25,000 nucleotides of DNA, taken from NCBI GenBank assembly GCA_023078555.1, contig JALAAN010000015.1, positions 12,501 to 37,500 on the forward strand, in the 5' to 3' direction. A program made the position numbers and the translations under genes. Shown piece after piece: positions 1 through 20,531 of this stretch. The stretch's first letter is position 1. Each line of letters opens with the position of its first letter. This DNA is from Ulva prolifera (taxonomy: Eukaryota > Chlorophyta > Ulvophyceae > Ulvales > Ulvaceae). The notes beneath the pieces are model-generated. The model was not told the DNA's origin, searched no databases, and saw only the letters and a program-made list of their open reading frames with translations.

Positions 1-1
1 G

Positions 2-1714
2 GATGCAGCGGCCACGTGCTTGGCTGCGCCGGCATCACATGGCAGTGCAGTCGCGGCATCACATGCTCCAAGGGCAGCGACTGTGGCCGCAAAACCTTCC
101 GCTTCAGTTGCGGAGCTGTCAGTGGGCGCGGCGGAGGTTCAGGGCGTAACCCACAGCGTGGTGCGGTTTGTGCACGCAGCGGCTCCAATGCCTGTGTCCA
201 CATCTGCTGCGGCAGCAGGTGTTGCTGCGGCTGCGCATGGTGTGAGTTTGCCCGGTTTGGCTGTTGCGGGCGCAGCAGCAGTGGCCACAGGTGCTGCGGG
301 TGCTGCACATGCTGCAGACCCACAGCTGGTTGCAGAGTTGACCCTGGCACACACCAGCGTGGGGCAGAGGCTGCGGGGAGGTGGTTCTGGAACCATGCTG
401 CCTGATCCCGGTGGTGGTGTGGAGGCTTGTAGTGAACGGGGCAGCGGCGGCTCGGCGGGGTCAGGCTCGGCTGAGGCGGTTTCAAACCGGCCGGCAGCGG
501 TGGGCAGCCCATCAGCCAAGTCGAAGCAGATTGCAGCTGCTGCATTGCGTCTCCGGACATCGCGGCAGTTTCGTATGATGTCGGGTGCCAGGCCTGTAGT
601 GAAGAAGCGTGTGCGTGAGGAGGCAGCTGACAGCGTGTGCGCAGTCGTAGGGAAGGCGGCGGGTGGGGGCGCGGCTGTCGATGCTGCAGCTGCAGTGGTG
701 CATGAAGGTGGCTGTCCTATGGCAGCTCCCAGTGTGGGTAATACCACCGTTGCAGACTCCGCCGCTGAGGATCGCCCCTCACCGGGGGGTCCTAGTGCAG
801 CCAACTGCATCCCTGTGATTGATGTATCATGGATCAGCGCTGGTGTGCGCCCCGCTGCTAGGAAGACGTGGCATGTGGGGCGCAGTGCCTCGCAGCGCCC
901 TAAACACAGCAGAGGTGCTGTGTCTCTGACCAGGGCCGTCCTCGATGATTCAGACGACGATGCGCCCTTGCCAGATGCCTCCAACCGGGGTACACCTGCG
1001 TCGTTGGTGGATGTTGCTGAGGGTGGCGCACGCGGGCCTCAAAAGTCTTTCACGCAGTGGCTCAGCGGGGTCGCTGCGCAGCGACCTGAGGTTGGGGTTT
1101 GTGGCGGCGAAGCGGCACCGGCTGACAGCAGCGCTACCTGTGGGCAGGGTGATGTTGCTGCCCCGGAGCCGGACATTGCGGCCGCGCTTCGCCGTCGTGA
1201 TTCTCTCATTACACCCGAGCAGGTGCCACCCGTGACAGGTGTGTGTGAGCGGGCGAGTGCTGCACACAGATGCAGTGGTGGTGCTGCCCCTACACCGCAA
1301 CTGATGCGACCCTCACCGGCACGTGGTGACGGTGTGCCACGCAGTGATGATGGCAAGGCAGAGTGTGAGAGTTTTTCATTCTTCAACTCCAGCGATGAGG
1401 ACATCGAGGGTGATGTGTCGTACACAGCGTCCCAGATTAGCCTACTGTCCTCGGAGTCTGGCGATGAGGACGGGGACAGCGACGTTGTGCCTGTGCCTGC
1501 TATGGGTCCAGGTGATGAAGCTGCTGCGCTGCATCGTCTTGGGGACTTGCTCGACAACCCGCAGATGTATGCTAGGTATGCGGCCACTCGTGTTTGTAAT
1601 GAGTTCTACTGCCGTGCATGTCCCGCCACCTCCGCACGAAAGCCATCTGTCATCATTGCAACGCACGCTGCCATTCACTGCAACGCACGCATGCATTGTG
1701 TGTTGAAACTATAG
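2..1714 (+). CDS. 5'-partial large exon: Ala-rich, acidic disordered protein region
   Basis: The frame is open from the left edge to a TAG at 1712-1714, about 570 codons, so the true start lies outside the window. The first 100 residues are strongly Ala/Val/Gly-rich. The middle is Ser/Pro/Ala-rich with basic clusters (KKRVREE near 605-620). Two acidic Ser/Asp/Glu tracts follow, near 945-975 and 1380-1490, of the kind seen in casein-kinase-2-type sites. The last part turns Cys-rich (VCNEFYCRAC, about 1592-1621). The last ~30 codons differ between this copy and the duplicate at 4239 onward, where about 27 extra bases sit near 4400, so the true exon end is probably near 1620 and the TAG may be intronic. 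I recognise no family. It is probably the disordered N-terminal part of the large gene that continues downstream. Confidence 0.5.
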   Translation, partial: DAAATCLAAPASHGSAVAASHAPRAATVAAKPSASVAELSVGAAEVQGVTHSVVRFVHAAAPMPVSTSAAAAGVAAAAHGVSLPGLAVAGAAAVATGAAGAAHAADPQLVAELTLAHTSVGQRLRGGGSGTMLPDPGGGVEACSERGSGGSAGSGSAEAVSNRPAAVGSPSAKSKQIAAAALRLRTSRQFRMMSGARPVVKKRVREEAADSVCAVVGKAAGGGAAVDAAAAVVHEGGCPMAAPSVGNTTVADSAAEDRPSPGGPSAANCIPVIDVSWISAGVRPAARKTWHVGRSASQRPKHSRGAVSLTRAVLDDSDDDAPLPDASNRGTPASLVDVAEGGARGPQKSFTQWLSGVAAQRPEVGVCGGEAAPADSSATCGQGDVAAPEPDIAAALRRRDSLITPEQVPPVTGVCERASAAHRCSGGAAPTPQLMRPSPARGDGVPRSDDGKAECESFSFFNSSDEDIEGDVSYTASQISLLSSESGDEDGDSDVVPVPAMGPGDEAAALHRLGDLLDNPQMYARYAATRVCNEFYCRACPATSARKPSVIIATHAAIHCNARMHCVLKL

Positions 1715-1773
1715 ACGCCCGGCACATTCTCACCAGTAACGGCGAGCTTGCGTGAAGGATCAAGAACAGCAGC

Positions 1774-2963
1774 ATGGGCACGGCGGCGATGGCGCATGAT
1801 GAGGTGGTCATGCCGCGCCGTGAAATGCTAGTGCGCGGCCTGGCCTCCAAGTGGTCAGCTTCGTGGACTGACGCCGATGCAGATTGGTATAAGTGCATAC
1901 CATGCAAAAACGTCGAGAATCAGGAAGGTGCTGCAAGGTTGATGCTTGTGTTTGCACGAGCGTATCTTGTAGCGCTGGTCTCTGCGCAAGACGACCCTGT
2001 ATTCGACCAGGGTAGCGATGACTCTCGGTCCACCCCTGTGAAGATTCTCGACGACATTCAGAAATCCAAGAATGGTAAAGGCGAGGTCAGCATGGGCAGC
2101 ATTGTGGCCTCATTTGCTAAGTGCCCTGGGCAGGTGTTCTGCGAAACACTCACATTGTTGTCATGGGCTGGCCACATAGGAAGCTTCAATACGCTTGCCA
2201 TGTACAGATACACCGTATCAACGGTTGTAGATGCGTACTTGGAGGGACAGCGTATGATTGTCCGTAAAACCCCGTCCGAGGAGCAGGTGTGGTCTCGATG
2301 CCCCTTTCGTGCATGCTGCAGTTTCGTACTGCACACCCCACAATGTTCCATGGGCACAAAAATACTGACTGTACTGCAGCAGATCGCACAGCGTACCGGT
2401 GTGCGGTGTGTGATGCTTGTCGATTGCGCATTGTGCCATCCAGTGCTACCGTCACGGCCACGTTGAATGCTGCTATGCAGGCCTGGAGAGAGGCGAGCCA
2501 TTTGTTCCGCGCGTTTCGCTTGCAAGTGCGACTATACATTATGGCCCTCAAGGCAAACGGCGCTTTGAACGCATTGAAGCCAAAGCCGATGCAAGCTGCA
2601 GAGATCCGGAGATGCGCCGAAGCGACCAACTGCGGGTCTATCACCATCATGTATGGCCGGGTGGCGGCGTTCTTGAAGATGCTTTCGGGAGCCCGGAACC
2701 CCGTATTTGTGGCGCTCACATGGGGTCACGTCCACTTCATCCCCACCTACTATGTGGATGAGGCAACTCAGACGAAGCAGGTGCGGGGGTTGCTCACTCA
2801 GCCATACTACATGGATGCACAGCCTATATGTGCATGCATGGTGTACATTGTTTATTCCATGTATGGTGACATGGATGCCTCTGCATCACTGGGGCACCAT
2901 AGGGAGGCCTGCGTGCACATTGCAAAAGTCGTGCACACCGTTATGTATTCATGCGTTGGGTGA
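1774..2963 (+). CDS. Uncharacterised coding block, one apparent 2-bp frameshift
   Basis: The frame is open from 1774 to about 2411, then coding potential moves to another frame that runs to TGA at 2961-2963. The switch coincides with an extra TG in this copy near 2407-2413. The duplicate at 5064-5765 lacks it and reads straight through, so the two parts belong together (about 395 codons). Visible features are CxxC at the start (YKCIPC), a Cys cluster (RCPFRACC to VRCDAC), a basic helix-like stretch (REASHLFRAFRLQVRL), and HVHF near 2727-2738. I recognise no family. It may be an internal exon rather than an independent gene: AG acceptors lie just upstream at 1769 and 1772, and another coding block follows at 3030. 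Confidence 0.5.
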
Positions 2964-3029: not shown

Positions 3030-3330
3030 GTCACATTCATGTGCGAGTTCGCTATCGCATGGGACAAGGCACCCAATGTGTTTGGGGTTAAGAATATTGT
3101 GGTTGACAACACCGCAGCATTGAATGAGGAGGGTGTAAACTGGAATGACAGTCTGGGCTGCGTCGGGGAACATCTACTCTCCATCGCCTTGCACCAACGC
3201 GTCATTGATGTGGAGGATCTCTGCAATCTCAAGGTCGGTGACAGTTTCAAGCTCAGCCACCTTATCAAGAAGCGCACATCAAGCCCGGCCGCAGGACCCC
3301 ACATCGGAGGATGTGGACGCATGTGTGACT
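3030..3330 (+). CDS. Uncharacterised exon, continuation of the upstream coding block
   Basis: The frame is open after a good acceptor (GCGTGTAG at 3022-3029) and encodes a protein-like sequence starting VTFMCEFAIAWDK and including VFGVKNIVVDN and VGEHLLSIAL. A plausible donor for the preceding exon lies near 2955, giving an intron of about 75 bp and compatible phase. The 3' end is uncertain. The two assembly copies differ by one A near 3280, and the duplicate's frame (RPQDPTSEDVDA) looks better than the frame here. No known domain was recognised. It probably belongs to the same gene as the blocks on either side. Confidence 0.4.
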
Positions 3331-3539: not shown

Positions 3540-3774
3540 GTTTTGCTTCTGCCGCTACCAATGGATTGTCCCGCTACGATTTGTACCACTAGCGCCGTAC
3601 GCCATATCAGCTCTGGTGGCGCGGTTCACTGCGGCCGCCGACCATGAAAGTACTTTCAAGAGAGCTGGCGGACCGGCAATGGTCTTGGGGCGCATCATCC
3701 AGGCGGCAGCTACAATCACAACGGCCAGAGAACCGCGTTGCGATTGCCCATGCGGGGCAGTGGTCACTCAATAG
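3540..3774 (+). CDS. Possible exon, function unknown, low confidence
   Basis: Following a CAG at 3537-3539 (ATGCAG), a frame reading ALVARFTAAADHESTFKRAG and ending RCDCPCGAVV is open to TAG at 3774. Its composition is protein-like, with a terminal Cys cluster. The duplicate copy (6301-6573) keeps the same ending but is out of frame in the middle because of indels. Exon limits cannot be set from either copy. The rest of 3331-4237 shows coding-like fragments in changing frames but no boundary I can defend. Confidence 0.25.
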
Positions 3775-4237
3775 CATCACATACCAGACCGAGTACCTCC
3801 ACCCCTCAATCTTGCACTCGCTGTTTGGGGACCTGGTACGGACTAGCCCGCAACAGCTTTATGGAAACTAAGTGATGTTGCCTGTTAGCGAGGGGCGTGT
3901 GTATATATGGGCCGCGTGTCCGATACCAATCCTGTTGATGCAATACAGTCCGCTGCTTCGGACGAACGGGCACGGCCCGGTCCGACATACTGTCTAAATT
4001 CGCAAGCATGGTACGCAAGGCCCTAAAAGATCTGGGAGGGAAGTGCCGTCGGCAATGAGCAACCTGGTCAAGACGGCAGCGTTTAAGGCCATTGAGTCTC
4101 GTGCGGCAAAGACAAAAATCAATATGCATTGGCGGTGTATATGCATGCAGCTGTGGGGCAGTTGTTCTTACACAGCGACGAGGGCAGGGGCAGTTGCAAG
4201 AAGCCGATGTTCACGGGAAGACATTGCTCGACGCAAG

Positions 4238-4238: not shown

Positions 4239-4574
4239 ATGAGGACGGGGACAGCGACGTTGTGCCTGTGCCTGCTATGGGTCCAGGTGATGAAGCTGCT
4301 GCGCTGCATCGTCTTGGGGACTTGCTCGACAACCCGCAGATGTATGCTAGGTATGCGGCCACTCGTGTTTGTAATGAGTTCTACTGCCGTGCATGTCCGC
4401 CACCCCATGTCGAAAGTCTACTGATGATGGTCGCAGCCTCCTAAAGCCATCTGTCATCATTGCAACGCACTGCCATTCACTGCAACGCACGCATGCATTG
4501 TGTGTTGAAACTATAGACGCCGGCACATTCTCACCAGTAACGGCGAGCTTGCGTGAAGGATCAAGAACAGCAGC

Positions 4575-5765
4575 ATGGGCACGGCGGCGATGGCGCATGA
4601 TGAGGTGGTCATGCCGCGCCGTGAAATGCTAGTGCGCGGCCTGGCCTCCAAGTGGTCAGCCTTCGTGGGACTGACGCCGATGCAGATTGGTATAAAGTGC
4701 ATACCATGCAAAAACGGTCGAGAATCAGGAAGGTGCTGCAAGGTTGATGCTGTGTTTGCACGAGCGTATCTTGTAGCGCTGGTCTCTGCGCAAGACGACC
4801 CTGTATTCGACCGATGGGTAGCGATGGACTCTCGTCCACCCCTGTGAAGATTCTCGACGACATTCAGAAATCCAAGAATGGTTAAAGGCGAGGTCAGCAT
4901 GGGCAGCATTGTGGCCTCATTTGCTAAGTGCCCTGGGCAGGTGTTCTGCGAAACACTCACATTGTTGTCATGGGCTGGCCACATAGGAAGCTTAATACGC
5001 TGCATGTACAGATTACACCGTATCAACGGTTGTATATGCGTACTTGGAGGGACAGCGTATTGATTGTCCGTAAAACCCCGTCCGAGAGCAGTGTGGTCTC
5101 GATGCCCCTTTCGTGCATGCTGCAGTTTCGTACTGCACACCCCACAATGTTCCATGGGCACAAAAATACTGACTGTACTGCAGCAGATCGCACAGCGTAC
5201 CGGTGTGCGGTGTGATGCTTGTCGATTGCGCATTGTGCCATCCAGTGCTACCGTCACGGCCACGTTGAATGCTGCTATGCAGGCCTGGAGAGAGGCGAGC
5301 CATTTGTTCCGCGCGTTTCGCTTGCAAGTGCGACTATACATTATGGCCCTCAAGGCAAACGGCGCTTTGAACGCATTGAAGCCAAAGCCGATGCAAGCTG
5401 CAGAGATCCGGAGATGCGCCGAAGCGACCAACTGCGGGTCTATCACCATCATGTATGGCCGGGTGGCGGCGTTCTTGAAGATGCTTTCGGGAGCCCGGAA
5501 CCCCGTATTTGTGGCGCTCACATGGGGTCACGTCCACTTCATCCCCACCTACTATGTGGATGAGGCAACTCAGACGAAGCAGGTGCGGGGGTTGCTCACT
5601 CAGCCATACTACATGGATGCACAGCCTATATGTGCATGCATGGTGTACATTGTTTATTCCATGTATGGTGACCTGGATGCCTCTGCATCACTGGGGCACC
5701 ATAGGGAGGCCTGCGTGCACATTGCAAAAGTCGTGCACACCGTTATGTATTCATGCGTTGGGTGA
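4575..5765 (+). pseudogene. Duplicate, frame-broken copy of the 1774-2963 coding block
   Basis: It corresponds base for base to 1774-2963 but has single-base insertions around 4660-4740 and 4810-4885 and losses around 4990-5100, so only 5064-5765 stays open. That piece bridges the frame switch seen in the first copy. One substitution changes YGDM to YGDL near 5672. I regard it as an uncorrected assembly copy and not a biological pseudogene. It should not be counted as a second gene. Confidence 0.7.
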
Positions 5766-5831
5766 CTGACGCTCGTGCTGGTCTCACGTCAATATGGTCG
5801 AGGCGGGCCGTTTACGGGGGCCCGCGTGTAG

Positions 5832-6291
5832 GTCACATTCATGTGCGAGTTCGCTATCGCATGGGACAAGGCACCCAATGTGTTTGGGGTTAAGAATATT
5901 GTGGTTGACAACAACCGCAGCATTGAATGAGGAGGTGTAAACTGGAATGACAGTCTGGGCTGCGTCGGGGAACATCTACTCTCCATCGCCTTGGCACCAA
6001 CGCGTCATTGATGTGAGGATCTCTGCAATCTCAAGGTCGGTGGACAGGTTCAAGCTCAGCCACCTTATCAAGAAGCGCACATCAGCCCGGCCGCAGGACC
6101 CCACATCGGAGGATGTGGACGCAATGTGTGACTTGCTCATATCCCTTTGCTGTGCCTGTTTCTTGTTAAATTGTTACATGTGCGACATGATGCAATGCTA
6201 TAACAACGCCAATGGATGCCGGCCGCTACTTGTGCATCATTCACACCATGGGGTGCCAGCTGCAGCAATGTGTGGTGTCACAGCTCGGTGA
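5832..6291 (+). pseudogene. Duplicate, frame-broken copy of the 3030-3330 exon region
   Basis: It starts after the same GTAG acceptor and matches 3030 onward, but an extra base near 5915 and a missing G near 5935 disrupt the frame. From 5947 to 6291 a different frame is open and includes DPTSEDVDAMCDLL, which may be the better reading of the distal part. It is most likely assembly noise on a single genuine exon. Confidence 0.6.
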
Positions 6292-6877
6292 GCACTCGGG
6301 GTGATTCGAAAGTATATGGCGCACGCAATGCACCCATGCAGGTTTTGCTTCTGCCGCTACCATGTATGGTCCCGCTTACGATTTGCTACCACTAGCGCCG
6401 TACGCCATATCAGCTCTGGTGGCGCGGTTCACTGCGGCCGCCGACATGAAAGTACTTTCAAGAGAGCTGCGGACCGGCATGGTTCTTGGGCGCATCATCC
6501 AGGCGCAGCTACATCACAACGGCCAATAGAACCGCGTTGCGATTGCCCATGCGGGGCAGTGGTCACTCAATAGCAGCACATACCAGACCAGAGTACCTCC
6601 ACCCCTCATCTTGCACTCGCTGTTTGGGGACCTGGTACGGACTAGCCCGCAACAAGCTTTTATGGAAACTAAGTGATGTTGCCTGTTAGCGAGGGCGTGT
6701 GTATATATGGCCGCGTGCCGATACCCAATCCCTGTGATGCATACAGTCCGCTGCTTCGGACAACTGCACGGCCGGTCGACATACTGTCTAAATTCGCAAG
6801 CATGGTACGCAGGCCCTCAAAGATCTGGGAGTGCCGTCGGCAATGAGCAACCTGGTCAAGACGGCAGCGTTTAGGCC

Positions 6878-7160
6878 TTGAGTCTCGTGCGGGACAAAAT
6901 CAATATGCATTGGCGGTGGTATATGCATGCAGCTGTGGGGCAGTTGTTCTTACACAGCGACGAGGGCAGGCGGCAGTGCAAGAAGCCGATGTTCACGGGA
7001 AGACATTGCTCGACGCAAGCTTGCGCACTCATCGACGTGACCGCTCGGGAGCACATAGCTGCGTACGGCTGGACACTCATTCGCAAGATGCATCCCGATG
7101 GCCCTGCGCAACTCCACCTGTGGGGCAAAGACAAGTTTATGCCCGCTGAGAACCGTTCAG
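6878..7160 (+). CDS. Exon crossing out of the duplicated region
   Basis: The frame is open from 6878 and ends at a strong donor (TTCAG|GTGCGT, intron from 7161). It encodes a Cys/His-containing segment (MHWRWYMHAAVGQLF, then HCSTQACALIDVTARE) and ends in KDKFMPAENRSG. The part before 7020 is also present at 4120-4237, where the frame is broken by indels. This exon shows where copy 1 should continue. The 5' boundary is not resolved. The donor leaves phase 1, which fits the acceptor at 7424. Function is unknown. Confidence 0.5.
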
Positions 7161-7195
7161 GTGCGTTTTTTAAGTTCGTGGGGTAGGGTTTTCGC

Positions 7196-7221
7196 GGGGG
7201 GGGGGGGGGGGGGGGGGGGGG
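7196..7221 (+). repeat. Homopolymer G26
   Basis: This is an uninterrupted run of 26 guanines inside the proposed intron. Such a run could fold into G-quadruplex structures in the RNA or the non-template strand. Its exact length is unreliable in any assembly. Confidence 0.95.
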
Positions 7222-7298
7222 TTGCGTAGGCTAACCGAGTTGGCAGGTGCTGTACGCCTTTTGTGCATCCATGTCGGTTACTGTTCTTGTAGTTGAAA

Positions 7299-7322
7299 GG
7301 GGGGGGGTGGGGGGGGGGGGGG
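7299..7322 (+). repeat. Interrupted homopolymer G9-T-G14
   Basis: A second guanine tract about 80 bp after the first, interrupted by one T at 7308. Like the first, it could form a G-quadruplex and lies on the coding strand of the same intron. Confidence 0.95.
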
Positions 7323-7424
7323 CAATTGCAGGTGTAGTATTGAGCTCAATAGATGTGTTTCGGGAGGCGGTGTACCTGCGTAGGGTTCGGGGTGCGGGTC
7401 ATGAAGGACGGCCATTGTCCGCAG

Positions 7425-7495
7425 GAGTGCACTCGCGTGATACTCAAACCTGTTGGTACTTTGCGTGTCACACACAGTGTGTCTTCGCTGTGCAG
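7425..7495 (+). CDS. Small Cys-rich exon
   Basis: This 71-bp block lies between a CCGCAG acceptor and a consensus donor CAG|GTGAGT (from 7496). Joined in phase to the exon ending at 7160, it reads VHSRDTQTCWYFACHTQCVF, with three Cys spaced C-x4-C-x3-C, consistent with the Cys-rich character of the rest of the gene. Another frame is also open across this short exon, so the call rests on phase agreement and donor quality. Confidence 0.4.
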
Positions 7496-7545
7496 GTGAG
7501 TTGAAGGCTTTCTGCGTTATGCTAAGAAATGCTGACGAGGTGCAG

Positions 7546-7920
7546 ACGGCATGGTTACATGCACTGGAGGATGCTGGTGGTGATCATGGGGTGGATTTGC
7601 GATCCATGCTGAGCACTGCCAGTGGCGGCAAGATGTTATGCCACTGGAAGCCATGCATTCGGTTTGAGAGACAGTCGCAGCGGACGTGCGCGAGCACCTC
7701 GAAGATCGTGATGCCCAGCTTGACGGCGCCACCGTTGAAGACATTGCCCAAGACATTGACCTTTGCCGATTTGGGCAAGAGATGTCCACTGCTCAGCTCT
7801 TTGGGGAAGAGGGCGACTTCTTAGTGGAGCGCATGCGGAAACACGAGTGTGGTATACAACGCGGACGCAATGAGGCAGAAGCGCCTTACAAAGCTCAATG
7901 TCGGTGCCGTTGAAGTGGAG
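7546..7920 (+). CDS. Exon with probable one-base frame slips
   Basis: The exon opens after a short 50-bp intron (GTGAGT to GCAG) with TAWLHALEDAGGDHGVDLRS in frame. From about 7665 the protein-like frame is a different one (ETVAADVREHLEDRDAQLDG to FLVERMRK). From about 7840 it returns to the first frame (GNTSVVYNADAMRQKRLTKL) and ends at donor GAG|GTACGT at 7921. Two compensating single-base errors explain this better than two extra introns, since no GT-AG pairs fit. The product is a helical, charged segment of unknown family. The second frame contains one TGA at its edge near 7663-7665. Confidence 0.45.
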
Positions 7921-8105: not shown

Positions 8106-8309
8106 GTGACCACGGAGGGCCTCAATGCGATCCTTGTCCATCGCAAGGCGACTTTGCAGCACTTCAGCATCCCGGTACAGAGGCCGCCGACGCTGAACAG
8201 TGCGGGACTGGATCTGGACCGCGGGCGGTGCGGGGTTCATGGGTGTCATTCGCCAAATACGGCAGGGCAACGACAGTTTGGAGCAAAATGCTGCAGTATC
8301 TGCGCTTGG
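8106..8309 (+). CDS. Exon upstream of the zinc modules, one apparent frame slip
   Basis: After acceptor AATGCAG it reads VTTEGLNAILVHRKATLQHF in phase 0, matching the exon ending at 7920 across a 185-bp intron. Near 8215-8225 the protein-like frame shifts by one base into GFMGVIRQIRQGNDSLEQN and continues to a donor GG|GTGCGA at 8310. If that donor were not used the frame would hit TAG at 8347-8349, so an alternative is that a separate upstream gene ends there. Function is unknown. Confidence 0.4.
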
Positions 8310-8421
8310 GTGCGACCTCAACAACATTGTGTTTTCCCTTGAGGGCTAGGTCTGTTGTGAGTCGGCTGTCTACATGGCGCAAGATTATGTTGATGCTCCA
8401 CCGAATTTTTGTTTCTCACAG

Positions 8422-8916
8422 CCCGCATGTTCTTGTAGAAAGAGCACCGGTGCCGGTGTGTGGTGCGGAGCTACAAGTCGCTCGAGGTGGCAAATCCGGA
8501 CATACCGCTTCAGGCAAGTGCCTCGCTGTTGACTCCAAGAAATCGGCAGCGGGGGCGACGGTTGCAGACGATCTTGCCTTGCGGATACCGTGGGGGGGGT
8601 CAGCAATCAGATGCATCTGTGGCCCCCGACACCTTCGGAAGCCGCTTCGTCTTATTGAAGATTTCCGTGGTACGCGCACCGCTGGCTTTGGGCGGTACTG
8701 CAAGAATACAGCGTGCAAGAAGGTTCTGGACCTCGGGAATTTCACGGGATTTGCCACCGTTTGCAACATTCACAGGACAGGCGCAACGATGCTTGGCCGG
8801 AAGGCAGTGCTGCCGCCGGTCGATGAGGCATTTACGGGGTTTGCGGTGACTGAGCCCCGGCTCGAATCTCTGGTCGCTGGCTCTGCCAACTTGCACAAAC
8901 GCGATTTGACGCGTTT
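8422..8916 (+). CDS. Exon with first half of zinc-binding module 1
   Basis: The exon opens after TTTCTCACAG and is open past the proposed donor at 8917 (TT|GTGATT) to a TGA at 8918-8920. It contains a C-x4-C-x15-C-x2-H arrangement: Cys at 8699, 8714 and 8762 and His at 8771 (YCKNTACKK to VCNIHR). This resembles the first zinc site of the other modules downstream. The next exon's acceptor at 9181 requires a phase-2 donor; 8917 fits, and an earlier site at 8842 would also fit. Upstream residues (KKSAAGATVADDLALRIPWG) look genuinely coding. DNA or protein binding is inferred only from the metal-ligand pattern. Confidence 0.55.
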
Positions 8917-9181
8917 GTGATTCATCACTTGTACTGTGCTGCTAGAAACCCCAGAAGACTGGGCCTCTGCCCGAAGCATGTGAAGGTGATATTTCCATGC
9001 GTGTCTGCCCTAAGTCCACATGCGGTGCTACTCCATGCCATGCCGGGGACGTGTTGCTGATTCAGTGTTGCAGTACATGCATAAATAGGTTGCCTTGCAT
9101 GTGTTTTGAGTTTCAGATTGGCTCGAGAGTGTTTCTTCCTAAGATTTGCTTGTCAAGTGACAAGGGATGCTATTTTTGCAG

Positions 9182-11061
9182 ATCCCGCCTGATCGATGCT
9201 AATGGGGTCGGCGCCGTCAGCTGCAGCCGCTGCTTCTACCTGAAGGAAGAGGGCCTTTTCGCACAGGACTCGCGCAACTGGAAGCGCCAATGCTGCGTGT
9301 GCCTGGAGATGGACGCCCCGCGGCAGGAGCAGGACGAGCGAGTGCAGGCAGCATTGCCGCGTCCACCCGCACGTGCACCGGTGATGATCACCGCACGGAT
9401 GCCAGCTGGCGCGCCCTGGCCGGGGAAGCTGACCGGCGCGCAATGCGCTGTGTATGTGTGGGACAAGAAGACGGAGGCATACGAGGCTTGCCCGGGGGGT
9501 TCGATGACACCTAGCAACCACCGGCACCCCTCCCGAGTGTGCCCCTATCACCGGAGCTGTGTCATCCACCACACAAATGCGCATGTTACATTTGAGAGAA
9601 TGTTCTGCAATCGTTGCGCGCTGTGGAAGAGCCCGGACGCGTGGGTAACACGGGCCGACGGCACGACTGCGCGAAGCATTTGCAATGGTTGCGCTGAAGG
9701 CGGCGGTCCTAAGCGAGCTCCCGTGCAGCAAGTGCAGCATGGCACACAAACGCCCGACGGCTTGACCACTGTGCACCAGATCTTGCCCGACATGTCTGAC
9801 GGCATGGAGTGGCTGCTTTTCTATGCCCCCAAGTCGCGTGCCAGTAAGGACACTGCATTCAACATGTGGCCGACTCGGGCGGACGAGTGCCATGTTGCCG
9901 GTTGCACCAACAGTGTCGGGCCCACGAAGTCAAGGGTGTGTTATCCTCACATTGATGATGTGTTGTTCCGACAAAGTCAAGACGGGTGGGATGCGACAGT
10001 CGTGTACTATTGTCGTGGGTGTCAGCGCTGGACGGACGTGAAGCTGTTGGAGGCAGACGGCACGTGCGGGTTGAGATGCGTGTTACGTGGGGATCGAGGG
10101 TCGAAGGCTCAGATTGCGGGAGACAAGGACCTGAGACTCGTCCTCGAGCGTCTCCAGTCTGACCCGGCCCTCGCACTCCTGCCGGCTCGAGATTTCGCAC
10201 GCGCCCTTGGGCTGCCCACGTGCGACATGCGGGACAAATCTGAGGTCACACGATGCCATTACATCGATAGTGTGAAGGGCCGTTGCAAGAATAAAATCTC
10301 GTTGACGCATGACAGCTGCATGTGCAGCGCCAAGCAGCACTGCCATGCAGTGGTGCTGAGGGTGTGCGATACAACAGGCGACGCCACAACGTGGTATTGC
10401 CCCAAGTGCAAGCGGGTCTGCTCCATCGAGGGGGTGGGCCTAGTGCGAGGCAGCTATGTATGCGCCCGCTGTTGTGCTGTACATGCGAACCACCAGCAGG
10501 CAGCCGAGAAGGCTCGCATTGCCGAGCGGAAGGATGAGTCCTCGCCCGCAGGGAGCGTTCAGTTGTACAGTGATGAGGAAGATTTCGGCAATGCATGCTG
10601 TGTCTCCTCAGACACTGGCGCGGAGTCTGAAGCCGTCGATGCTGATCAGCCTCCTTGCGCTGTCGACACGGGTGACAGCGACGATGCACTCATGGGTGAC
10701 GATTACGGCGCCTACACCGAATCGGACTGTGATGGTGATGGGGTCGCCCTCATCGGAGAATGCATGCCCGTCGCGGCAGTGCAGGGACAGTCGGTGCCAG
10801 CCCCCGCACACGGTGGTGCAAGCTCAAGCCGGGCTGCTCTCGCGCAGACGCCTGCTGATGCTGCAGTATTTGAATGCCTGACGGCTCCGCCGCCCGGTCG
10901 CGCGCGTTGCCGCAACGCGCCCGCGTGCAAGAAGACACCGCCGCCAGATCGGCTTGTCGACGGACTATGCATCACGTGCTTGTCGAGTTCAAAGGACAGT
11001 GGCACAGCTCTGGACGCGATCGTGTTGGTGACTGTGCCGGGCACACTGCACCGCAGCGCAG
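9182..11061 (+). CDS. Tandem Cys/His zinc-module array with acidic linker
   Basis: The open frame actually spans 8997-11099. I start the exon at 9182 because a pyrimidine-rich TATTTTTGCAG acceptor precedes it. It completes module 1 (CSRC at 9222-9233, CCVC at 9291-9302) and holds module 2 (9444-9692: VCPYH, FCNRC, ICNGC), module 3 (9888-10079: CHVAGC, VCYPH, YCRGC, C-x4-C), module 4 (10254-10475: YCPKC, VCARC) and module 5 (10908-10979: C-x4-C-x13-C-x2-C). Modules 2 and 3 have C...C...CxxH then CxxC-x2-W...CxxC, reminiscent of the two zinc sites of plant SBP-box domains, but the SBP nuclear-localisation segment is not evident. An acidic Asp/Glu/Ser linker lies at about 10570-10740. The likely role is nucleic-acid or protein binding. 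The donor at 11062 is GTGCGA, phase 1. Confidence 0.7.
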
Positions 11062-11255
11062 GTGCGATATTGAGCACATGCACTGAACTGTTAATTTGAT
11101 CAACATTTGAAGGATGACCTTGTGTGCACGACTCCTGGTGACTGCACATGAGGACAGGTTTACGCGTGAGTCAGTAGATGAGTGCATTGCGTGCATCCGT
11201 GTTGCGACTCAGCTATCGTCATTTGTGCATTTAATTGGCCAATGTATTACACCAG

Positions 11256-11552
11256 TGTGCTGTGAAGGCACGCTTGACCTCGTGAAAGCCGATCTCATGG
11301 ACGACGCGGCTGATGGTGTGATTGTCCCGACCAACGCTCTGATGACGGATAAGGCTGCTAGGTACAACCACCGAAAGCGGCAGCGCTACGAAGCGAAGCC
11401 ACTATCTGAGAAGGAGAAATTGCGGAAGGCGTACGATGTGAGCATGCGGGCCGCACGCCGCAAGTCCAGCAAGGGCCTCAAAAACCTTGAGGCGGGCCCA
11501 GTCGCGAAAGCGATGCGTGGTCGAACATCATCGAGTCGGCGATGTGAGCATG
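11256..11552 (+). CDS. Exon encoding a basic linker
   Basis: It joins the zinc-array exon across a 194-bp intron (GTGCGA to ACACCAG) in matching phase and reads VCCEGTLDLVKADLMDDA. A strongly basic stretch follows (YNHRKRQRYEAKPLSEKEKL then RAARRKSSKG). That stretch resembles a bipartite nuclear localisation signal and would also suit nucleic-acid contact. The exon ends at GTATGA (11553), phase 1. The frame stays open another 45 codons into the proposed intron, so the donor is chosen by phase and by its fit with the acceptor at 11828. Confidence 0.55.
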
Positions 11553-11828
11553 GTATGAACTCTGGGTCGTTCTGTTGTGTGACTGGAATCGCCCGCACGT
11601 GGTGTCCCTCCGCACTGCTATGTATTAGAGTGACGTGGCCACCGAATGATCCCCTCCGCCTGGATCTGTGTCACGGTGCAGAAGTGTGATTTTATTTGGC
11701 TGCGGCACAACAGGATGTGTCCACAAGGGTTGCTTGCGTAGGGTGCGTGCGCACGTATGAACACGGAAAAAATAAAATCTTTGTGTGTCAGCGATCACTG
11801 TGAATGCTTGTATACCATGCCAATACAG

Positions 11829-12883
11829 AGGAGTTCCGATGCTGTAGCACGCCTGTCGCAGTTGCGTTGCCAGCCGATGTGTCTACAAGGGTGGGGTCGG
11901 TTTGTGATGATGCCGACTATGCCAGTCCTTGCATTGATAGCACCTCGCTGACCGACCACATGCATGCAGCGTCATCAGCAATGCAAGTGATGGATGGGCT
12001 GCACAGTTTAAGCCTCGCGGACTGGACGAAGCTGGCAGCGGTGGAAGATGTGCTCCCTGACATCTCAGTCGAGGTGCCGATGTGGGTGAGGCAACGCAGC
12101 AAACAGACGCTGGTGGTCCAGGAGTTTGTTCCTGTCGGCTTTGACTTCAAGGCACCGCGGCCGTCCAAGACGCGGCCGCCGAAGAAACAAGCACCGGCGC
12201 GAGCACGTGCGGGCGATGTGCAGGCATCCCAGGCTCAGCGGAGTGAGAACTCGGCGAGACTCCACATCGGGCTGTCTCACTGCAAGGCGGAAAAGGAACG
12301 CAGCGGCGACAAGGTGCAGTGCCTCACGTACTCAATGCGCGTGCAGCACCTCTCCATGTCACGCGAAATGACAGCGCCACAACCCCAGATCGGCAAGGTG
12401 GACATTCGGTACCTCCAGTTGGTGAGGGACACAGGCGAGCTGCTCATTGCTCGAGCCTTTGACCCTGATGCCCATGGCTGTTTGCGCGTGACAGTGCACG
12501 TGACTACCATGCAGCTGCTGAAGCAGTTGCAGCAGCTCCCGCGCCCGACGCTGCCGGCGCTGCTGACCCTGTTTGTGTGGGGAATCGCGCACTGCATCAA
12601 AGCTGTCCACGAGAGCTCGACAGACTCAAAAATTGCTGACCTGTCCAAGCTGATGTGGCACCATTCCTATGCGGAGGGCCTGTCGCTCTCATGGAAGCTC
12701 GTCCAGGTTGCTGCGGCCACGACCTGGGTCAACAGCGACGATGATGTCGGCACGGCCCTGTCGGTACTGGCCTGCATTCCCCGTGCAGCGCTCATCGGTT
12801 CAGAGCAGTTTGACAAGACCTCCTGGGCGACCATCCTCGAGCGGTCACGGACGCGACAAGGGCACAGAGCACCACTTGATGAG
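11829..12883 (+). CDS. Large exon, uncharacterised central domain
   Basis: This block encodes 351 codons after a CAATACAG acceptor. It starts with EEFRCCSTPVAVALPADV, then an acidic and hydrophobic helix (LHSLSLADWTKLAAVEDVL), a Lys/Arg/Pro linker (APRPSKTRPPKKQAPARARA) and a compact alpha/beta-looking region (DIRYLQLVRDTGELLIARAF; LKQLQQLPRPTLPALLTLFV; SLSWKLVQVAAATTWV). No catalytic motif was recognised. In rolling-circle or SF1-linked mobile-element proteins a nuclease sits upstream of the helicase, but I see no HUH or DEDD pattern here. The donor GAG|GTGCGC at 12884 is phase 0. Confidence 0.65.
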
Positions 12884-13035
12884 GTGCGCGCTGTTAAAAT
12901 TCACCATCCTTGAGCATAAAGTGCTGCTCTGTGTGGTCTGTGTTCGTGCATGAGCCTGAGAGACAACTCCCGGCTTAAGCAAGCCCGGAAAATGTCAGTA
13001 GTGTCTGTCATGAACTATACCTACGCAACATGCAG

Positions 13036-13539
13036 ATTCCATGGCCTGATGGATGTGACCCTGAAGTCATTGTGACATCGGGTTTTACACCTGCTGACCT
13101 GACAAGTCTGAAGGCTGCCGCCAAGACGGACGCGACACGTCAGCAGTTTGCGTTCACCGCTGATGCCCGCGTACGTCCGGTTGGTGATGTCACGCGAGGC
13201 AGGCAGGGTATCGGATCAAAGCGACGGGCATCAGCAGCCCGTGCAGCAGACAACGCGGGCGCGATCGATCTGACTGGTGACGGAGGCGCCTCTGCGCAGC
13301 CGCCAGCGATGCGTCGGAAGGGATACCAGCAGGAGTGGCCAGAGGGGCGCTTGCACCAGCCCGGCAAACGAAGTCACGGCAAGATCCTAGTTCAGGCGAG
13401 CGCAACACGGGAGAGGTCTGCGCAGAAGCGATTGCTATCGTGGGCGATTGCGCGGGGACTGGAGGCCAGAAGCGTGCTAGGAGCCCCGTGCATGGGCACA
13501 GCGGCGCGCGGGCAAGTGATACCCCGAGCTCGCATGGAG
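13036..13539 (+). CDS. Exon with basic/disordered linker and SUMO-interaction-like motif
   Basis: It follows a 152-bp intron (GTGCGC to ACATGCAG) in phase 0. It begins IPWPDGCDPEVIVTSGFTPADL and then becomes a low-complexity Arg/Ala/Gly linker. GAIDLTGDGG near 13260 resembles the hydrophobic-acidic core of SUMO-interacting motifs, which is suggestive only. Downstream of about 13390 a second frame (GGQKRARSPVHGHSGARASD) is at least as protein-like, so the distal 150 bp may contain an indel or an earlier splice. I end it at GAG|GTGCAG (13540) because this removes the in-frame TGA at 13666. Confidence 0.45.
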
Positions 13540-13770
13540 GTGCAGGCAGCAGCAGTGGCACCGGCGTTGGTGAAGGCAGCCTGGGACGCAACAGTCATGA
13601 TGGAGCCCGAGGCGATATCGGCGGCGCTGCTGGGGCGGCGGCGGCGGCGGCGACGGCGGCGGCGGTGACCCTGGGGTGCTGGTGGGAGAGGCAGCGGCGG
13701 ACCCAGACGTGGCGCACGCTGGGCCCCTATTGATCACCGTGTGCCCGTCACAGTGCGCAATCCAACGCAG
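13540..13770 (+). other. Proposed intron containing a (CGG)n tract
   Basis: The phase-0 pair GTGCAG to AACGCAG removes 231 bp, including a (CGG)n tract at about 13634-13665 and the TGA at 13666-13668, the only stop in the frame shared by both flanking exons. If it is retained, the frame reads ten Arg codons and then stops. Alternatively the region is an exon with indels. Confidence 0.35.
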
Positions 13771-13950
13771 GTGGCCGCATTGCTGCAGTCATGCAAGGAC
13801 ACCACGGCACAGCCTTTCAGCTACAAGCTGAGGGTCAGAGACCAGCACATGGGACCTGGAAAGAGTGTCAGAGCCATCACCGGCGCGGTGTGCTCCTTCT
13901 TTGACCTTTGCCACATGCGCACTGACCCTCACGTCTTGTCCGACTGTAGG
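13771..13950 (+). CDS. Short exon before the helicase domain
   Basis: It is open in the same frame as 13036-13539 and encodes VAALLQSCKDTTAQPFSYKL then GPGKSVRAITGAVCSFFDL. It ends with a Cys-containing tail (LSDCR) at donor GTGTGT (13951). The upstream bases 13741-13770 (VPVTVRNPTQ) are also open and protein-like, so the exon could begin earlier. It joins in phase 0 to the Walker A exon at 14103. Confidence 0.5.
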
Positions 13951-14102
13951 GTGTGTGATCTGTGAGTGTCTGTGATGGGAAATGTGCATGAAATGATATT
14001 GTCTCGTGCAGCATCTTTAAAAGAAAACACCGCTGTCACTGGTGTTTTGCCCTTTGTTATGTGACCCCTACCACGCAATGTACAAGGCTAGTCTTCGTGC
14101 AG

Positions 14103-14794
14103 GATCTGTTGCTGGCAGGACAGCCATCAGCCGACCATGCCAACGGAGTCATTGTTGTGGGCATGCCAGGGTCGGGCAAGACCGGGTTAATGCTGGACGC
14201 CCTCGCCCTGTCCGTTATCGGCTCGCCTCTGCGAACTGCAGCTCAGGGCAACACTGCTCAGCTGCCGGGGTTGACGCTCGATCAGGCAAAGCTAATGGTG
14301 CACAAGTCTGGTGTCACGCACAACATCGGGTTCCCCGCCGAGACGTGCTACAAGGCCATGGGCACCTACTTCTGGGAGCCGGCCTTGCCACCGCGACCAG
14401 CCGGATATAATCGCCCGACCTTTGAGCGTGTGGCCGGCCGGAAGCTGCATGTGCTGGAGGAGGTGCAAGCGTGGGTGCAACAAGTGCCGCAGCTCTTCAC
14501 CCAGCATCAAAGAGGTCTTCAGCAGGCGAATATGGCAAGCGGGTCTGCCAATTTGCTCCGCCAGTGCCAGTACATTCTGTCGTGTGACCCGCACCAGAGC
14601 CCGTGCAAAACATACGGAATCACGAACATCGATCACCAAGGCAGGGTGCAACAAGAGAAGGCGGAGGTTGTTATGCCATGGACGGCTGTGTTCAACGCCC
14701 TCGGCCAGCCCTGCTCAACCATGCATTGGCACATCTTTGCGGTGCATGGTCAGAGGCGCCTGCGTGGCCTGGGCTTCCGGCTACTACACAATCC
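14103..14794 (+). CDS. PIF1-like SF1 helicase, first part (motifs I-III)
   Basis: After GTCTTCGTGCAG the frame reads DLLLAGQPSADHANGVIVV and then Walker A GMPGSGKTGLM (14160-14192), which binds ATP phosphate. A motif II candidate is LHVLEEVQAW, with Glu-Glu at 14457-14462 in place of the usual Asp-Glu. Motif III is YILSCDPHQS, with DPHQ at 14586-14597, equivalent to GDPxQLPPV of PIF1-family helicases. The end (QRRLRGLGFRLLHNP) fits the motif IV region before the donor GTGCGC at 14795, phase 2. The order and spacing match PIF1/RecD-type SF1B helicases, 5'-3' DNA unwinding enzymes of nuclear and mobile-element DNA, but the sequence is strongly divergent. Confidence 0.7.
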
Positions 14795-14983
14795 GTGCGC
14801 TCCTTGCCTGTGTGTTTGCTTTGTCATGGCTGCTATGATCGGGCTGGCACGTGGTACATGTGGTTGAGGGCACCGCGTGCTGTGCATCAGCACATTTACT
14901 GAACCGCGGCAGCTGCGTGGAGAATGTACCATCAATCACTGCAAGTGCTAGGGTTTGTCCGTGAGGGACATGGTTGCTTTCAG

Positions 14984-15433
14984 GTCGAACGAGGACATCC
15001 GCATGATGAAGGGTCGCAAGGTCAACCTCGCGACCAGCTTCAACTTCGTCACCTTTTGCACCTCTGATCTGAAGAAGACCCCGCGAGAGGCTGCGGAGCA
15101 GAACACGGGCATCAAAGGGGTCAACTTTGGCTGGCAGGAGGCTGGTGCGGACCCGGAGACCTACCGGAACCCGAACTACGCGATTGACCTGTCAGGGGAG
15201 GATCGCAGCCTTCCGACAGCCACTGTCGTCATCGCGCCGTACAAGGCAGACTGCAAAGAGCTGCGCGACATTCTGCTGACGCGCGCTGACTACCGGGCTC
15301 TCATGTATTCATACAAGCGCACGGATGGTATGCGGCTCGGGCTCGGTGAGGGTACAACCTGCGAGATACCAGACGCTGTGTTTGCCGCAAGGGACGCGTA
15401 TGCATTCGAGTGCGCTTCGCAGCATCTCCCTGT
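14984..15433 (+). CDS. PIF1-like helicase, middle part
   Basis: After GCTTTCAG (189-bp intron) the frame continues in phase 2 with SNEDIRMMKGRKVNLATSFN, then an Arg/Lys-containing alpha/beta region (LPTATVVIAPYKADCKELRD). This plausibly matches the PIF1 segment after motif IV, where cofactor-like A-P-Y-K resembles the step before new strand contacts. It ends near ARDAYAFECASQHLPV at donor GTGTGC (15434). Joined to the next exon it makes LPVTMTKGGQKMV, which resembles the conserved L-x-L-x-x-G-x-x-V-M-L strand of PIF1 helicases. That match supports the splice. Confidence 0.6.
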
Positions 15434-15643
15434 GTGTGCTGCGTGCACGTGGGTAACCCTGAGGGCTAGTGTGTTGATTCCCATGTTCATGCAAAATGTG
15501 CTGGACTGCTGAACCACATCGTTGTATTGTGCCCCACACAACTGCGGTGTCTAGGGTGGGTGTGTGAATAGGTTGAAGTGTGGTGGTGCATGAGTTGCGC
15601 GCTGCTGCTTCACAGTTATTCTGACAAGCGTCAGTGCATGCAG

Positions 15644-16376
15644 CACGATGACGAAGGGTGGACAGAAGATGGTGCGACAGCTGGAGGACATGTCGTTCGC
15701 GAGCTGGGATTCCATCAAGATGTATCTGGGCGAGCCGATGCTTCTGACGGCGTGCCTCGGGCCGAGCCGGCCCAATGGGGCCTCGTGCTCGGCCGTGGCC
15801 TGGAAGTTTGTGGACACATCGACGGTGCGCGTGGAGTTCGAAAAGCGACTCGACTTCATGTGCAAGCAAGCGGACAGCCTGAAGGTCGCATGGACCCCCG
15901 TGCGGATGCGCACGGACACACATGACATAGACTCGGTCGAGAAGATTGCCTACAAGCTGCTGGAAGACTTCATCTCGGCAAATGAAGCCAAAGGCAAGAT
16001 GCTCCTGCCCTATGTCGCGATCCGCTCGCCAGCCAACACCATGATCCTAGAGCCGCTGCACCCCGAGCCTGAGCTGGAGTTCGTGGTCAGGACGCGGAAG
16101 GTGGCTGCACTGCGAGTTCAGCTGCCCATTGTGCCGGCGGCGGTGCGCACGGCGTCGTCCATGCTGAGTGCGACCGTGGAGCTGTCCGGGCAGCGCGTGG
16201 TCGTGCACAGCAAGTCTGCAGCGGACACGACGCTAGACGCCAGCGCGCACAATGCGCCGATGTATATCGGCTTGACCCGCGTATCGGACGCCGCGGATGT
16301 CGCCATCACGCACGACTCCATCATCCATGAGAACATGTTTGAGCCACGGCAGCAGCTAGCGTCCCTCGCACAGGAG
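15644..16376 (+). CDS. PIF1-like helicase, C-terminal part (motifs V-VI)
   Basis: The exon starts after CAGTGCATGCAG and reads TMTKGGQKMVRQLEDMSF. GEPMLLTACLGPSRPNGASC fits the PIF1 G-x-V-M-L...N-G loop. A degenerate motif V region (VPAAVRTASSMLSATVELSG) replaces the usual HKxQGxT core. Motif VI is clear: MYIGLTRVSDAADVAI at 16260-16307, with Thr-Arg at 16275-16280, the equivalent of the YVALSR arginine finger. It ends at GAG|GTGCAG (16377), phase 0; the frame would stay open to 16742, but the next exon looks better. The changed motif V and motif II raise the question of whether it is an active ATPase. Confidence 0.68.
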
Positions 16377-16431
16377 GTGCAGCATCTCAGTCAGGGTCGG
16401 GGGTACTGCAATTTGTACCATACATATGCAG

Positions 16432-16581
16432 AGGGCCATGACGGGCGGCCGCCGGAGGACCGGGGGTCGAGTGTACGACGAGCGGCTGCGCAGCCAGGCT
16501 GCGCACGGGTTTTTCGACTGGTCGGAGGAGGCCGAGCAGGATATGGTGCAGGCCTTTTTGCAGGCTCGAGCAGCCCCGTAG
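16432..16581 (+). CDS. Terminal exon of the helicase gene
   Basis: After ACATATGCAG a frame in phase with 16376 reads RAMTGGRRRTGGRVYDERLR and then HGFFDWSEEAEQDMVQAFLQ, ending in TAG at 16579-16581. Its charged amphipathic composition is much more protein-like than the read-through of the previous exon, which becomes Gly/Ser/Cys low complexity. The intron would be only 55 bp. The alternative donor GGTCGG at 16394 would change phase. This exon sets the likely end of the gene. Confidence 0.55.
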   Translation, partial: RAMTGGRRRTGGRVYDERLRSQAAHGFFDWSEEAEQDMVQAFLQARAAP

Positions 16582-17946
16582 TCTGTGCAGCTCCGCATCA
16601 TCACAACTGCCATGGCAGCTGGCGGTGTTGTTGTTTGTGGGGGGGAGCAGGAATTGGTGGGGCTCAGGCATGGATGTGGGGCTCTGTGTATCTCACGGTG
16701 CTTATGTGGGCAGTGTGTGGGTGGATGTGTTGTGGCGTATGAATGTGCTGAGAAACGGCTCTGATGAGATCCTGCTCAGAAGAATGTCCGGGAATGCTCT
16801 CACGTCACGTCTAATGAGTTTGGTTTGCCGTGATGTGGCAGCTCTGTTTCCTCCACAGCCACCTGCAATTGGCATCTGCCCGTCCCTGTAATCTGTGTAG
16901 CAATTGTCTAAGGTAGTCTTTAAGTTGAGATATGTTGTATTTATTTGTACTGAGGCTGGTGTGTTGTGTGCGGCATTTCGTCGTGGGTGGCCCGGCCGGC
17001 GCAAGGTGCACCGCATCGCAGCATGTCATTTGGGGCATCGATCTTGGAGGCAACCCGCGTGTTTGCCACTTGGTATGTCAATCCGGGATAAAGCCGCTGG
17101 CTGCGGACACCACACTGACGCGGGCACGGACAGACCACACGGCGCCTGTGACGAGTCTGAGTTGATATACCAATGAATGAAAATATATAGTATTTCATTG
17201 TGTGATTACGATCAGCGCCATGCTGGTTGCGCCAGCAAATCAGGCCGGCGTGCTTGACACACCCGCCACAGGAACCGCACGGATTGAGGCTTTGCACAGA
17301 GAGCATGAGCCAACAAGAAAATTATATGCTAATTTGACGTGGTGGTGGTGTGAATTTGAGAGATCAGCACGCACACCATCAGTAACGGATCGTCGAAACA
17401 CGGCCGGTGCTGCCAGCTGCAGCAACACCAGCTTGCCCTGGTGGCACGTGCTGCAATCTGCTTTCATCTCCACTGTATCCCATTCTTATTCTTCACTACT
17501 GGCGACGGGGGTTGCGTGAGCGACAAGAGACAGCGGGGCAGGTTACGGCGACTCGCAGCTCCACGACGTTGTCACGGTTTCCAACGAACATACCAGCAGA
17601 TCGACGTGATGTCTAACAATAGATATGTGACAACTACGAGGACTTTGATGTGCCCAGGTGATCGCAGTAGCACCAGTGACCAGCACGAGGTTCCGGCTGC
17701 TGATGCACATGGCAACGACTGCACCAAGCGGTGGTGTATATCATCGGCAGACTTGTCGCAGTATGCAGATACTGTAACTGTCATGCTAGTCAGCGTAGAC
17801 GCCGGTTGATGGGTTACCGTGGGGCTCGGGCCAGCGCGTTTGTGCGCTTATGGCCACGGCATAGCAGACCTACCTCGCGAGATGGTTGCAGACAGTGCAC
17901 GATGCAGGTTCACTTCGGTCGTGGATCCATCCCCTACCGGCGACCG
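16582..17946. other. Downstream region without a convincing gene
   Basis: Several short plus frames exist, such as 16932-17165 ending PVTSLS and 17441-17809, but none has a recognised motif or clear splice context. A TGTAA, the polyadenylation signal of many green algae, lies at 16887-16891, about 300 bp after the TAG. It could end the 3' UTR, but the pentamer is common by chance. The stretch 16900-17200 is more AT-rich than its surroundings. Confidence 0.4.
17175..17198. repeat. AT-rich hairpin
   Basis: AATGAAA at 17175-17181 pairs with TTTCATT at 17192-17198 around a 10-base ATATATAGTA loop. It lies in the AT-rich stretch downstream of the helicase gene, just after a TGA ending an open frame. 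It could be a transcript-end or element-end structure, or chance. Confidence 0.5.
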
Positions 17947-18044
17947 GCGACCTCCGCGCCACCGTCGGGCCCTGTTGTCTTTTGGGCCGCGGGATGCTGG
18001 AGGGGCGCTGCGGCCGGCGTGGCCAGAGGTGCATCGCGGCTGCG
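17947..18044. repeat. Dispersed repeat C, copy 1
   Basis: It starts GCGACCTCCGCGCCACC, then TCGGGCCCTGTT, and ends in CGGCCGGCGTGGCCAGAGGTG. A diverged copy is at 21256-21335 in the same orientation with a few small indels. Shorter echoes occur near 18811-18833 (TCGGGCCCTGTTTTTCGGGC) and 21779-21799 (CGTGGCCAGAGGTGCAGCGC). It is very GC-rich with no ORF I would defend. Confidence 0.7.
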
Positions 18045-18069
18045 GCCCGGATGGATGGCTCGGCGACCT

Positions 18070-19302: not shown

Positions 19303-19303
19303 N
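19303..19303. other. Second single N, possible contig join
   Basis: An isolated N lies between block A and block B. Unlike the N at 4238 it is not flanked by an obvious overlap. Base composition changes here to an AT-rich, A-rich stretch (19304-19375), so linkage across this point should be treated as provisional. Confidence 0.6.
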
Positions 19304-19381
19304 TTACAAAAGAGTGAACGGGAGAAAACAAACACTGAAACCGAATCTCATCCGAATCAAATGCAACATACACCCACACAC

Positions 19382-20520: not shown

Positions 20521-20531
20521 CGCGACGCCCC

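Follow-up and report, generated by a model that had tools for sequence, protein, structure and literature searches.

Results

A giant spliced gene in the window

The DNA analysed here, called the window throughout, is a stretch of 25,000 nucleotides from Ulva prolifera (C14:12501-37500) within a 67.6-kb contig of a genome of 88.9 Mb in 44 contigs. From its left edge to position 16581 it holds a damaged copy of a giant gene belonging to a multicopy family that may be mobile. The gene was modelled on a copy at C6:7617501-7640500 which, read unchanged, has 16 exons, 15 GT-AG introns and 0 internal stops and encodes 3,900 residues. Exon ends and the first methionine of the C6 model were chosen from homology and splice signals, without a transcript. 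The introns are the reason for treating the window as eukaryotic.

Splice sites were projected from the C6 copy onto seven other copies, allowing a shift of up to 9 nucleotides and counting only ends with a protein match within 12 residues. Donors were conserved at 60 of 61 positions (55 exact, 5 shifted by 3 or 6 nucleotides) and acceptors at 62 of 63; both misses fall in the window copy, beside frame changes. Since copies L048 and L049 are near-identical to the C6 copy (proportion of synonymous differences, pS, 0.05 and 0.10 overall), the weight of this result rests on the window, L051, L052, L060 and L061. Three C6 stretches (L047, L048 and L049) retain the exon blocks of the window at about 40-72% amino-acid identity. 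We regard it as almost certain that this is a real giant spliced gene.

A previous reading of the window, made without database searches (the sequence-only reading), had proposed one gene from 8309 to 16581, open throughout and of about 2,200 residues. Nine exon blocks and eight GT-AG introns, with boundaries set by C6 homology, bear out the single gene, and the positions 8106, 8309 and 16581 given in that reading are exact boundaries in the homology-based model. The nine blocks are only the last nine of sixteen exons, however, with homologues of exons 1-7 at 1-7920, and the C6 protein is nearly twice as long as the reading supposed. Nor is the window copy free of stops: exon 9, delimited by homologous splice sites, is open in no frame (2-4 stops per frame), and exons 10-16 (2,008 codons) contain a TGA at 13666. 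Further frame changes relative to C6 were read by eye at 8450-8500 and 8905, and another lies in exon 16 near 16473.

Part of this damage may not be biological. In window 1464-7028 a segment of about 2.8 kb is doubled around an N at 4238 (a second N lies at 19303). In the sister copy L051, which is 98% similar to window 1-4237, the stretch is single; the doubling, which spans the last part of exon 1 and exons 2-6, and the scattered one-base insertions and deletions (indels) of its second copy are therefore probably assembly faults. L051 also has no stops in exons 2-6, 8 and 9, while its exon 7 is split over two frames; some lesions of the window may therefore be base errors as well.

Table 1. 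The giant gene in the window, with percentages of amino-acid identity to the copies named (dN/dS, ratio of nonsynonymous to synonymous substitution rates)
Feature	Position	Strand	Basis or comparison
Exon 1 (3' part, cut by left edge of window); N-terminal region, low-complexity, partly acidic by eye	1..1575	+	C6 exon 1 tblastn covers 269-1573; donor GT conserved; end read from sequence
Exon 2, opening of conserved recombinase-like region	1758..2286	+	64% to C6; dN/dS 0.10; AG/GT conserved; ends read from sequence
Exon 3, with SGARNPVFVALxWGHVHF block (recombinase box I by eye)	2481..2780	+	81% to C6; dN/dS 0.10
Exon 4, one base fewer than second copy near its end (by eye)	3030..3322	+	70% to C6
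Exon 5, first copy damaged (two overlapping frames)	3540..3835	+	homology
Exon 6, ends at N at 4238	4020..4237	+	homology
Second copy, exon 1 end through exon 6, scattered one-base indels	4239..7160	+	direct repeats ~2.8 kb apart
Second-copy exon E2'	about 4560-5090	+	
Second-copy exon E3'	5283-5582	+	
Second-copy exon E4'	5832-6127	+	
Second-copy exon E5'	6342-6634	+	
Second-copy exon E6'	6813-7160	+	
Exon 7, in-frame TGA near 7685 (placed by eye), frame change near 7851	7496..7920	+	homology to C6
Exon 8, frame change near 8200	8106..8309	+	homology to C6
Exon 9, first zinc modules (by eye)	8439..8985	+	56% to C6
Exon 10, alternating Cys/His module row, acidic linker, last Cys module	9182..11061	+	one open frame
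Exon 11, basic linker	11268..11552	+	43-45% to C6 copies
Exon 12, central domain, unknown fold	11970..12883	+	49-55% to C6 copies; 34% to C3 (173 residues)
Exon 13, conserved ends flanking low-complexity stretch	13036..13887	+	stretch seems in another frame in window, TGA 13666
Exon 14, helicase motor part 1	14103..14809	+	71-76% to C6 copies; profile match to PIF1-like family
Exon 15, helicase between motor parts	14984..15433	+	61% to C6 copies
Exon 16, helicase motor part 2, motif VI-like APMYIGLTRV, C-terminus, stop	15644..16581	+	64-70% to C6 copies

The gene is under purifying selection. Between window and C6 copies pS was 0.65, the proportion of nonsynonymous differences (pN) 0.29 and dN/dS 0.24 over 3,192 codons (exons 1-16). 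Exon 5 matched exons 2 and 3 at 0.10, exon 14 gave 0.15, and synonymous sites were saturated in exons 4, 6 and 8. In two other subfamilies exons 2-6 gave 0.07 and 0.10 (584 codons, synonymous sites near saturation). The part of the gene with the lowest dN/dS is thus exons 2-6, upstream of 8106.

Zinc modules and helicase

The predicted protein carries zinc modules, as the sequence-only reading had proposed: 34 Cys/His positions of exon 10 are common to the window, C6 and C3 versions, and 16 more to window and C6. The C3 exon 10 is only about 23% identical, yet it shares the 34. By eye, the modules are alternating C-x4-C...C-x2-H and C-x2-C...C-x2-C pairs.

The C-terminal exons show motifs I, II, III, IV and VI of superfamily 1 (SF1) helicases in order, the names being assigned by eye. 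Exon 14 contains a Walker A motif (GMPGSGKT), LEEVQA (motif II), CDPHQS (motif III), VVMPW and HGQRR (motif IV by eye). Five helicase-exon sequences have GxPGxGK, LxEVQA, DPxQSxC, VxMPW and HxQxR in common, some of which vary in a wider set, and an ALTRV-like motif VI is present in the two sequences compared over that part. The P-loop, the acidic motif II, a DxxQ motif III, a QxR/NxR motif and motif VI are shared with PIF1-like SF1B helicases (PF05970). Unlike these, the protein has a motif III without the usual GD and a motif V that was not recognised by eye; its helicase is part of a 3,900-residue protein, and the helicase exons gave no direct PIF1 match in Pfam.

The link to PIF1 was made through an intermediate family of the same genome, L003/L004/L006, whose three genes, on C2, C1 and C10, are PIF1-like, divergent and almost identical to one another. 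Against this bridge family, the exon-14 profile (hhalign) reached a probability of 95, an E-value (E) of 2.5e-8 and a score of 62.4 over 210 columns; the controls gave a maximum of 24.7 in 60 column shuffles and 16.5 with the reversed template. The bridge family itself only just exceeds the cut-off of the Pfam PIF1 model (26.2 vs 25.9 bits). Matches of the exon-14 profile to other PIF1 groups were weak (L001/L002, 5.1%; L005, 0.5%; all six pooled, 16.6%), and RecD, UvrD and RecB gave 28%, 10% and 0.1%; RuvB gave 80% over 40 columns around the P-loop. Through this one bridge, then, the divergent PIF1-like helicase seen in the sequence-only reading is very probably what the exons encode. That reading had suggested profile and structure searches: the bridge profile supplied the PIF1 link; solved structures searched with the helicase returned nothing better than E 0.88.

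No curated family matched above its own cut-off in the parts scanned, for which exons 1 and 10-13 were taken as window versions only. Single-exon window translations likewise gave nothing above cut-off in Pfam, exon 14 giving P-loop matches at E 0.1-0.2. This agrees with the view that the architecture is unlike that of named proteins. An Rfam search of the window gave no match.

Exons 2-6 and tyrosine recombinases

Exons 2-6 have conserved blocks in four subfamilies, laid out by eye like a tyrosine recombinase. Invariant R, K, R, W and Y residues, again assigned by eye, occur with plausible spacing in three to four subfamilies, and the exon 5 homologues carry a RExR..GR..NG..GQWS..TYQ..Y block. 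As in Cryptons and other tyrosine-recombinase elements, an arginine block (SGxR), a lysine hairpin, GR, GQW and TYQ/Y appear by eye in the usual order; the differences are the lack of profile support and the intron-rich giant gene in which the blocks lie. When exons 3-5 were compared with a profile of 86 recombinases, the best alignment fell on box I, in the register earlier chosen by eye, but with a score that shuffled profiles also reached. Pfam PF00589 found nothing up to E 1 in the whole genome. Overall, the odds that exons 2-6 form a recombinase domain appear evenly balanced. In the available part of a Crypton survey (PMC3212892), the word 'helicase' occurs 0 times.

Copies and arrays

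The genome contains 81 matches to exon 10, 65 to the helicase exon and 156 to exons 2-6. These counts include fragments and diverged relatives, and those for exons 2-6 are lower bounds, being taken among the matches listed. Many matches are truncated or have stops. The family is located on two chromosomes and about a dozen small contigs, mostly in head-to-tail arrays. Among the matches listed, all 7 exon-2 matches at C6:7.61-7.78 Mb lie on one strand, as do all 6 (one partial) at C2:1.85-2.09 Mb. Exon-10 matches are mostly 14-29 kb apart on small contigs, with one C17 pair at 39 kb, and 13-27 kb apart on C2, with one gap of 145 kb.

The arrays are mixed. Again among the matches listed, the large C6 array alternates copies with 58-59, 92 and 99% identity to the query, and the C2 array copies with 53, 58 and 64%. 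Neighbours in the C6 array can be saturated at synonymous sites, as for L061 (7.607 Mb) and the 7.62-Mb copy, with pS 0.74. This alternation of subfamilies favours targeted insertion over simple tandem duplication.

More distant relatives lie outside the arrays. In the 18 kb around a C3 copy, tblastn homology to the zinc and helicase parts begins at exon 10, and by eye the sequence before it also resembles the end of exon 9; the only other matches to the C6 protein there are to low-complexity exon 1 sequence. Upstream of the C3 copy is a gene (L056 1-4500) that appears, by eye, to encode 2,3-bisphosphoglycerate-independent phosphoglycerate mutase; it also precedes a partial extra zinc exon (L056 5819-7018). 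Helicase relatives with 33-48% identity are clustered, on mixed strands, at C1:3.57-3.75 Mb and C5:3.37-3.45 Mb.

Relatives in public data

A homologue search with exon 14 found nine proteins among 5,820 candidates, and one with exons 2-5 found one unspliced genomic piece among 7,998 scored. A search with the full helicase gave nothing up to E 0.01 among 7,994 candidates scored. The ten relatives (P0001-P0010) are unnamed sequences of public assemblies; they share the helicase exon or exons 3-4 at 31-99.7% identity with the C1, C3, C5, C6, window, L035, L037 or L061 copies, and differ from them in being only exon-sized fragments. P0001 and P0004 match C6 and C5 copies at 98-99% identity, and P0010 (exons 3-4) matches L061 at 99.7%, so that these three probably belong to the organism analysed here. 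P0002 and P0003 show 80-87% identity to C3 and C1 copies. P0005-P0009, at 32-67% identity to the copies compared, may come from other species.

Two peptide patterns run against 2.9 million viral contigs confirmed no relative, and phage records searched with exon 14 gave none. PHROGs returned two weak unnamed families (best E 0.0076). A literature search of titles and the beginnings of abstracts found no description of such a protein.

Flanking sequences

Two sequences were considered as element borders and set aside. An 80-bp stretch (window 19304-19383) common to the flanks of both arrays was rejected as a recombination site, being a genome-wide dispersed repeat with 99-100% identity on 13 contigs (40 scored of 1,318 first-look candidates). 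The C6 gene is also flanked on either side by a patchy direct repeat of about 1.2 kb, which was not accepted as an element end.

Directly downstream of the C6 gene lie tandem repeats of 166 bp (L055 715-1771) and 112 bp (1947-2371); the 166-bp array is present in L049 too. The window has intergenic repeats in 17946-25000, spaced 4.4-4.9 kb apart (18070-18779 vs 22466-23173 and 19382-20092 vs 24290-25000), which recur upstream on the contig (L050); no convincing gene was seen within them. A (CA)n run of about 340 copies occupies window 20532-21208. A search for exact runs of four or five units of TTTAGGG, TTAGGG or TTTTAGGG gave no match.

Discussion

The gene is multicopy and arrayed mostly head to tail. 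We put at about one in two the probability that the window holds a damaged copy of a giant gene (about 3,900 residues, 16 exons) representing a new eukaryotic family of probably self-propagating elements; that the family is mobile rather than a plain host family seems to us somewhat the better supported view. A fuller version is offered tentatively, at odds below even. It would be a new superfamily of eukaryotic mobile elements, each with one giant spliced gene that unites a PIF1-like helicase with five or six pairs of zinc modules and a tyrosine recombinase; new insertions would land next to elements of the same superfamily, and divergent subfamilies would in this way come to share head-to-tail arrays. 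In the model that we favour for the family, exons 2-6 would encode a DNA strand-exchange enzyme of tyrosine-recombinase type, which would recognise a site at the element borders and insert copies next to existing ones, so that subfamilies become mixed in arrays running head to tail. Binding to element or chromatin DNA would fall to the zinc modules, and unwinding of that DNA during copying or strand transfer to the helicase.

In favour of the helicase-bearing mobile element protein suggested in the sequence-only reading, there are many near-identical copies, and the arrays interleave old subfamilies. Against it, the analysis came upon neither element ends nor a target duplication nor an empty site. 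Several other observations count against our main explanation. For the recombinase, the histidine of the H-x-x-R motif, part of the R-H-R-Y catalytic tetrad of these enzymes, is not evident in exons 2-6, and a Pfam search with these exons gave nothing up to E 5. Comparison by hhalign with FimB/FimE, lambda Int, IntD, IntS, Cre and 80 XerC sequences gave probabilities of at most 0.6% and a best score of 19.9; this comparison covered bacterial and phage recombinases only, none eukaryotic, and is a weak test, known recombinases themselves scoring between 10.9% (lambda Int) and 99% when set against the XerC profile. The box I alignment scores 18.2, inside the range of 60 shuffles (mean 14.6, maximum 23.0). 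For the helicase, a full-length profile of two sequences reached only 20% against the bridge family, and AlphaFold2 modelling of window exon 14 with nine relatives gave a predicted local distance difference test score (pLDDT) of 42, on account of which no fold search was made for this exon. Among the arrays, a C6:1.80-1.85 Mb locus has two minus copies and one plus copy among the matches listed, and a mixed array can also spread by block duplication. The C3 copy has no exon-2-6 match within 18 kb, and the C1 and C5 helicase relatives have none among the matches listed, the weakest being unlisted.

The strongest rival is a lineage-specific host gene family, perhaps for genome maintenance, that was amplified in tandem by unequal crossing-over and whose helicase acts in trans with no transposition. 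Unequal crossing-over can also bring ordinary genes into a tandem head-to-tail arrangement, and the arrays here are mostly head to tail at few loci, under strong purifying selection and with no element ends seen. Diverged zinc-helicase or helicase relatives on C3, C1 and C5, in which exons 2-6 were not found (for C1 and C5, among the matches listed), would also suit a host family. Against it, synonymous-saturated subfamilies share one C6 array, as L061 and its 7.62-Mb neighbour do, arrays occur on two chromosomes, and the truncated or stop-bearing matches are what repeat families show. We consider this explanation a serious one, although its chances fall clearly short of even.

A Helitron-like rolling-circle element, with its replication-initiator part diverged past recognition, is improbable. 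Helitron RepHel proteins have zinc motifs and then a C-terminal PIF1-like helicase in one protein, a similar order to that seen here, and the remote PIF1 link fits as well. Helitron ends are 5'-TC...CTRR-3' with a 3' hairpin. However, no Rep domain was found and no Helitron Pfam model matched in the parts scanned, and no HUH motif was noticed by eye, where no systematic search was made; the HWH of exon 14 is not invariant.

Less probable still is a viral origin, in which replication genes of a DNA virus (a Polinton-like virus, for instance) were captured or became endogenous and were amplified in the genome; we rate it low mainly because of the 15 GT-AG introns, and no relative was confirmed in the viral contigs with the two peptide patterns or in the phage records with exon 14. 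Its very small odds were raised slightly on the available parts of PMC4642659 and PMC12721341, which describe the nearest systems found: some Polinton-like viruses, integrated into the genomes of protists, have a tyrosine recombinase and SF1 helicases, Tlr1 has a PIF1-like SF1 helicase, and large helicase fusions are known. In those viruses, as far as these parts show, the recombinase has a gene of its own and the helicase is fused with polymerase, whereas here one spliced gene includes zinc modules; no capsid gene was noticed in the present arrays, where capsid and polymerase genes were not specifically searched for.

If the family is self-propagating as proposed, a 3,900-residue selfish protein uniting strand exchange and unwinding would be a new eukaryotic solution to DNA transposition, and it would account for the seeding and upkeep of array-forming repeats. 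Even if these genes should prove to belong to the host, a giant helicase family that Pfam does not recognise, under strong selection and in large arrays, merits annotation, since arrays of this kind fragment assemblies, to judge by the small contigs of this genome.

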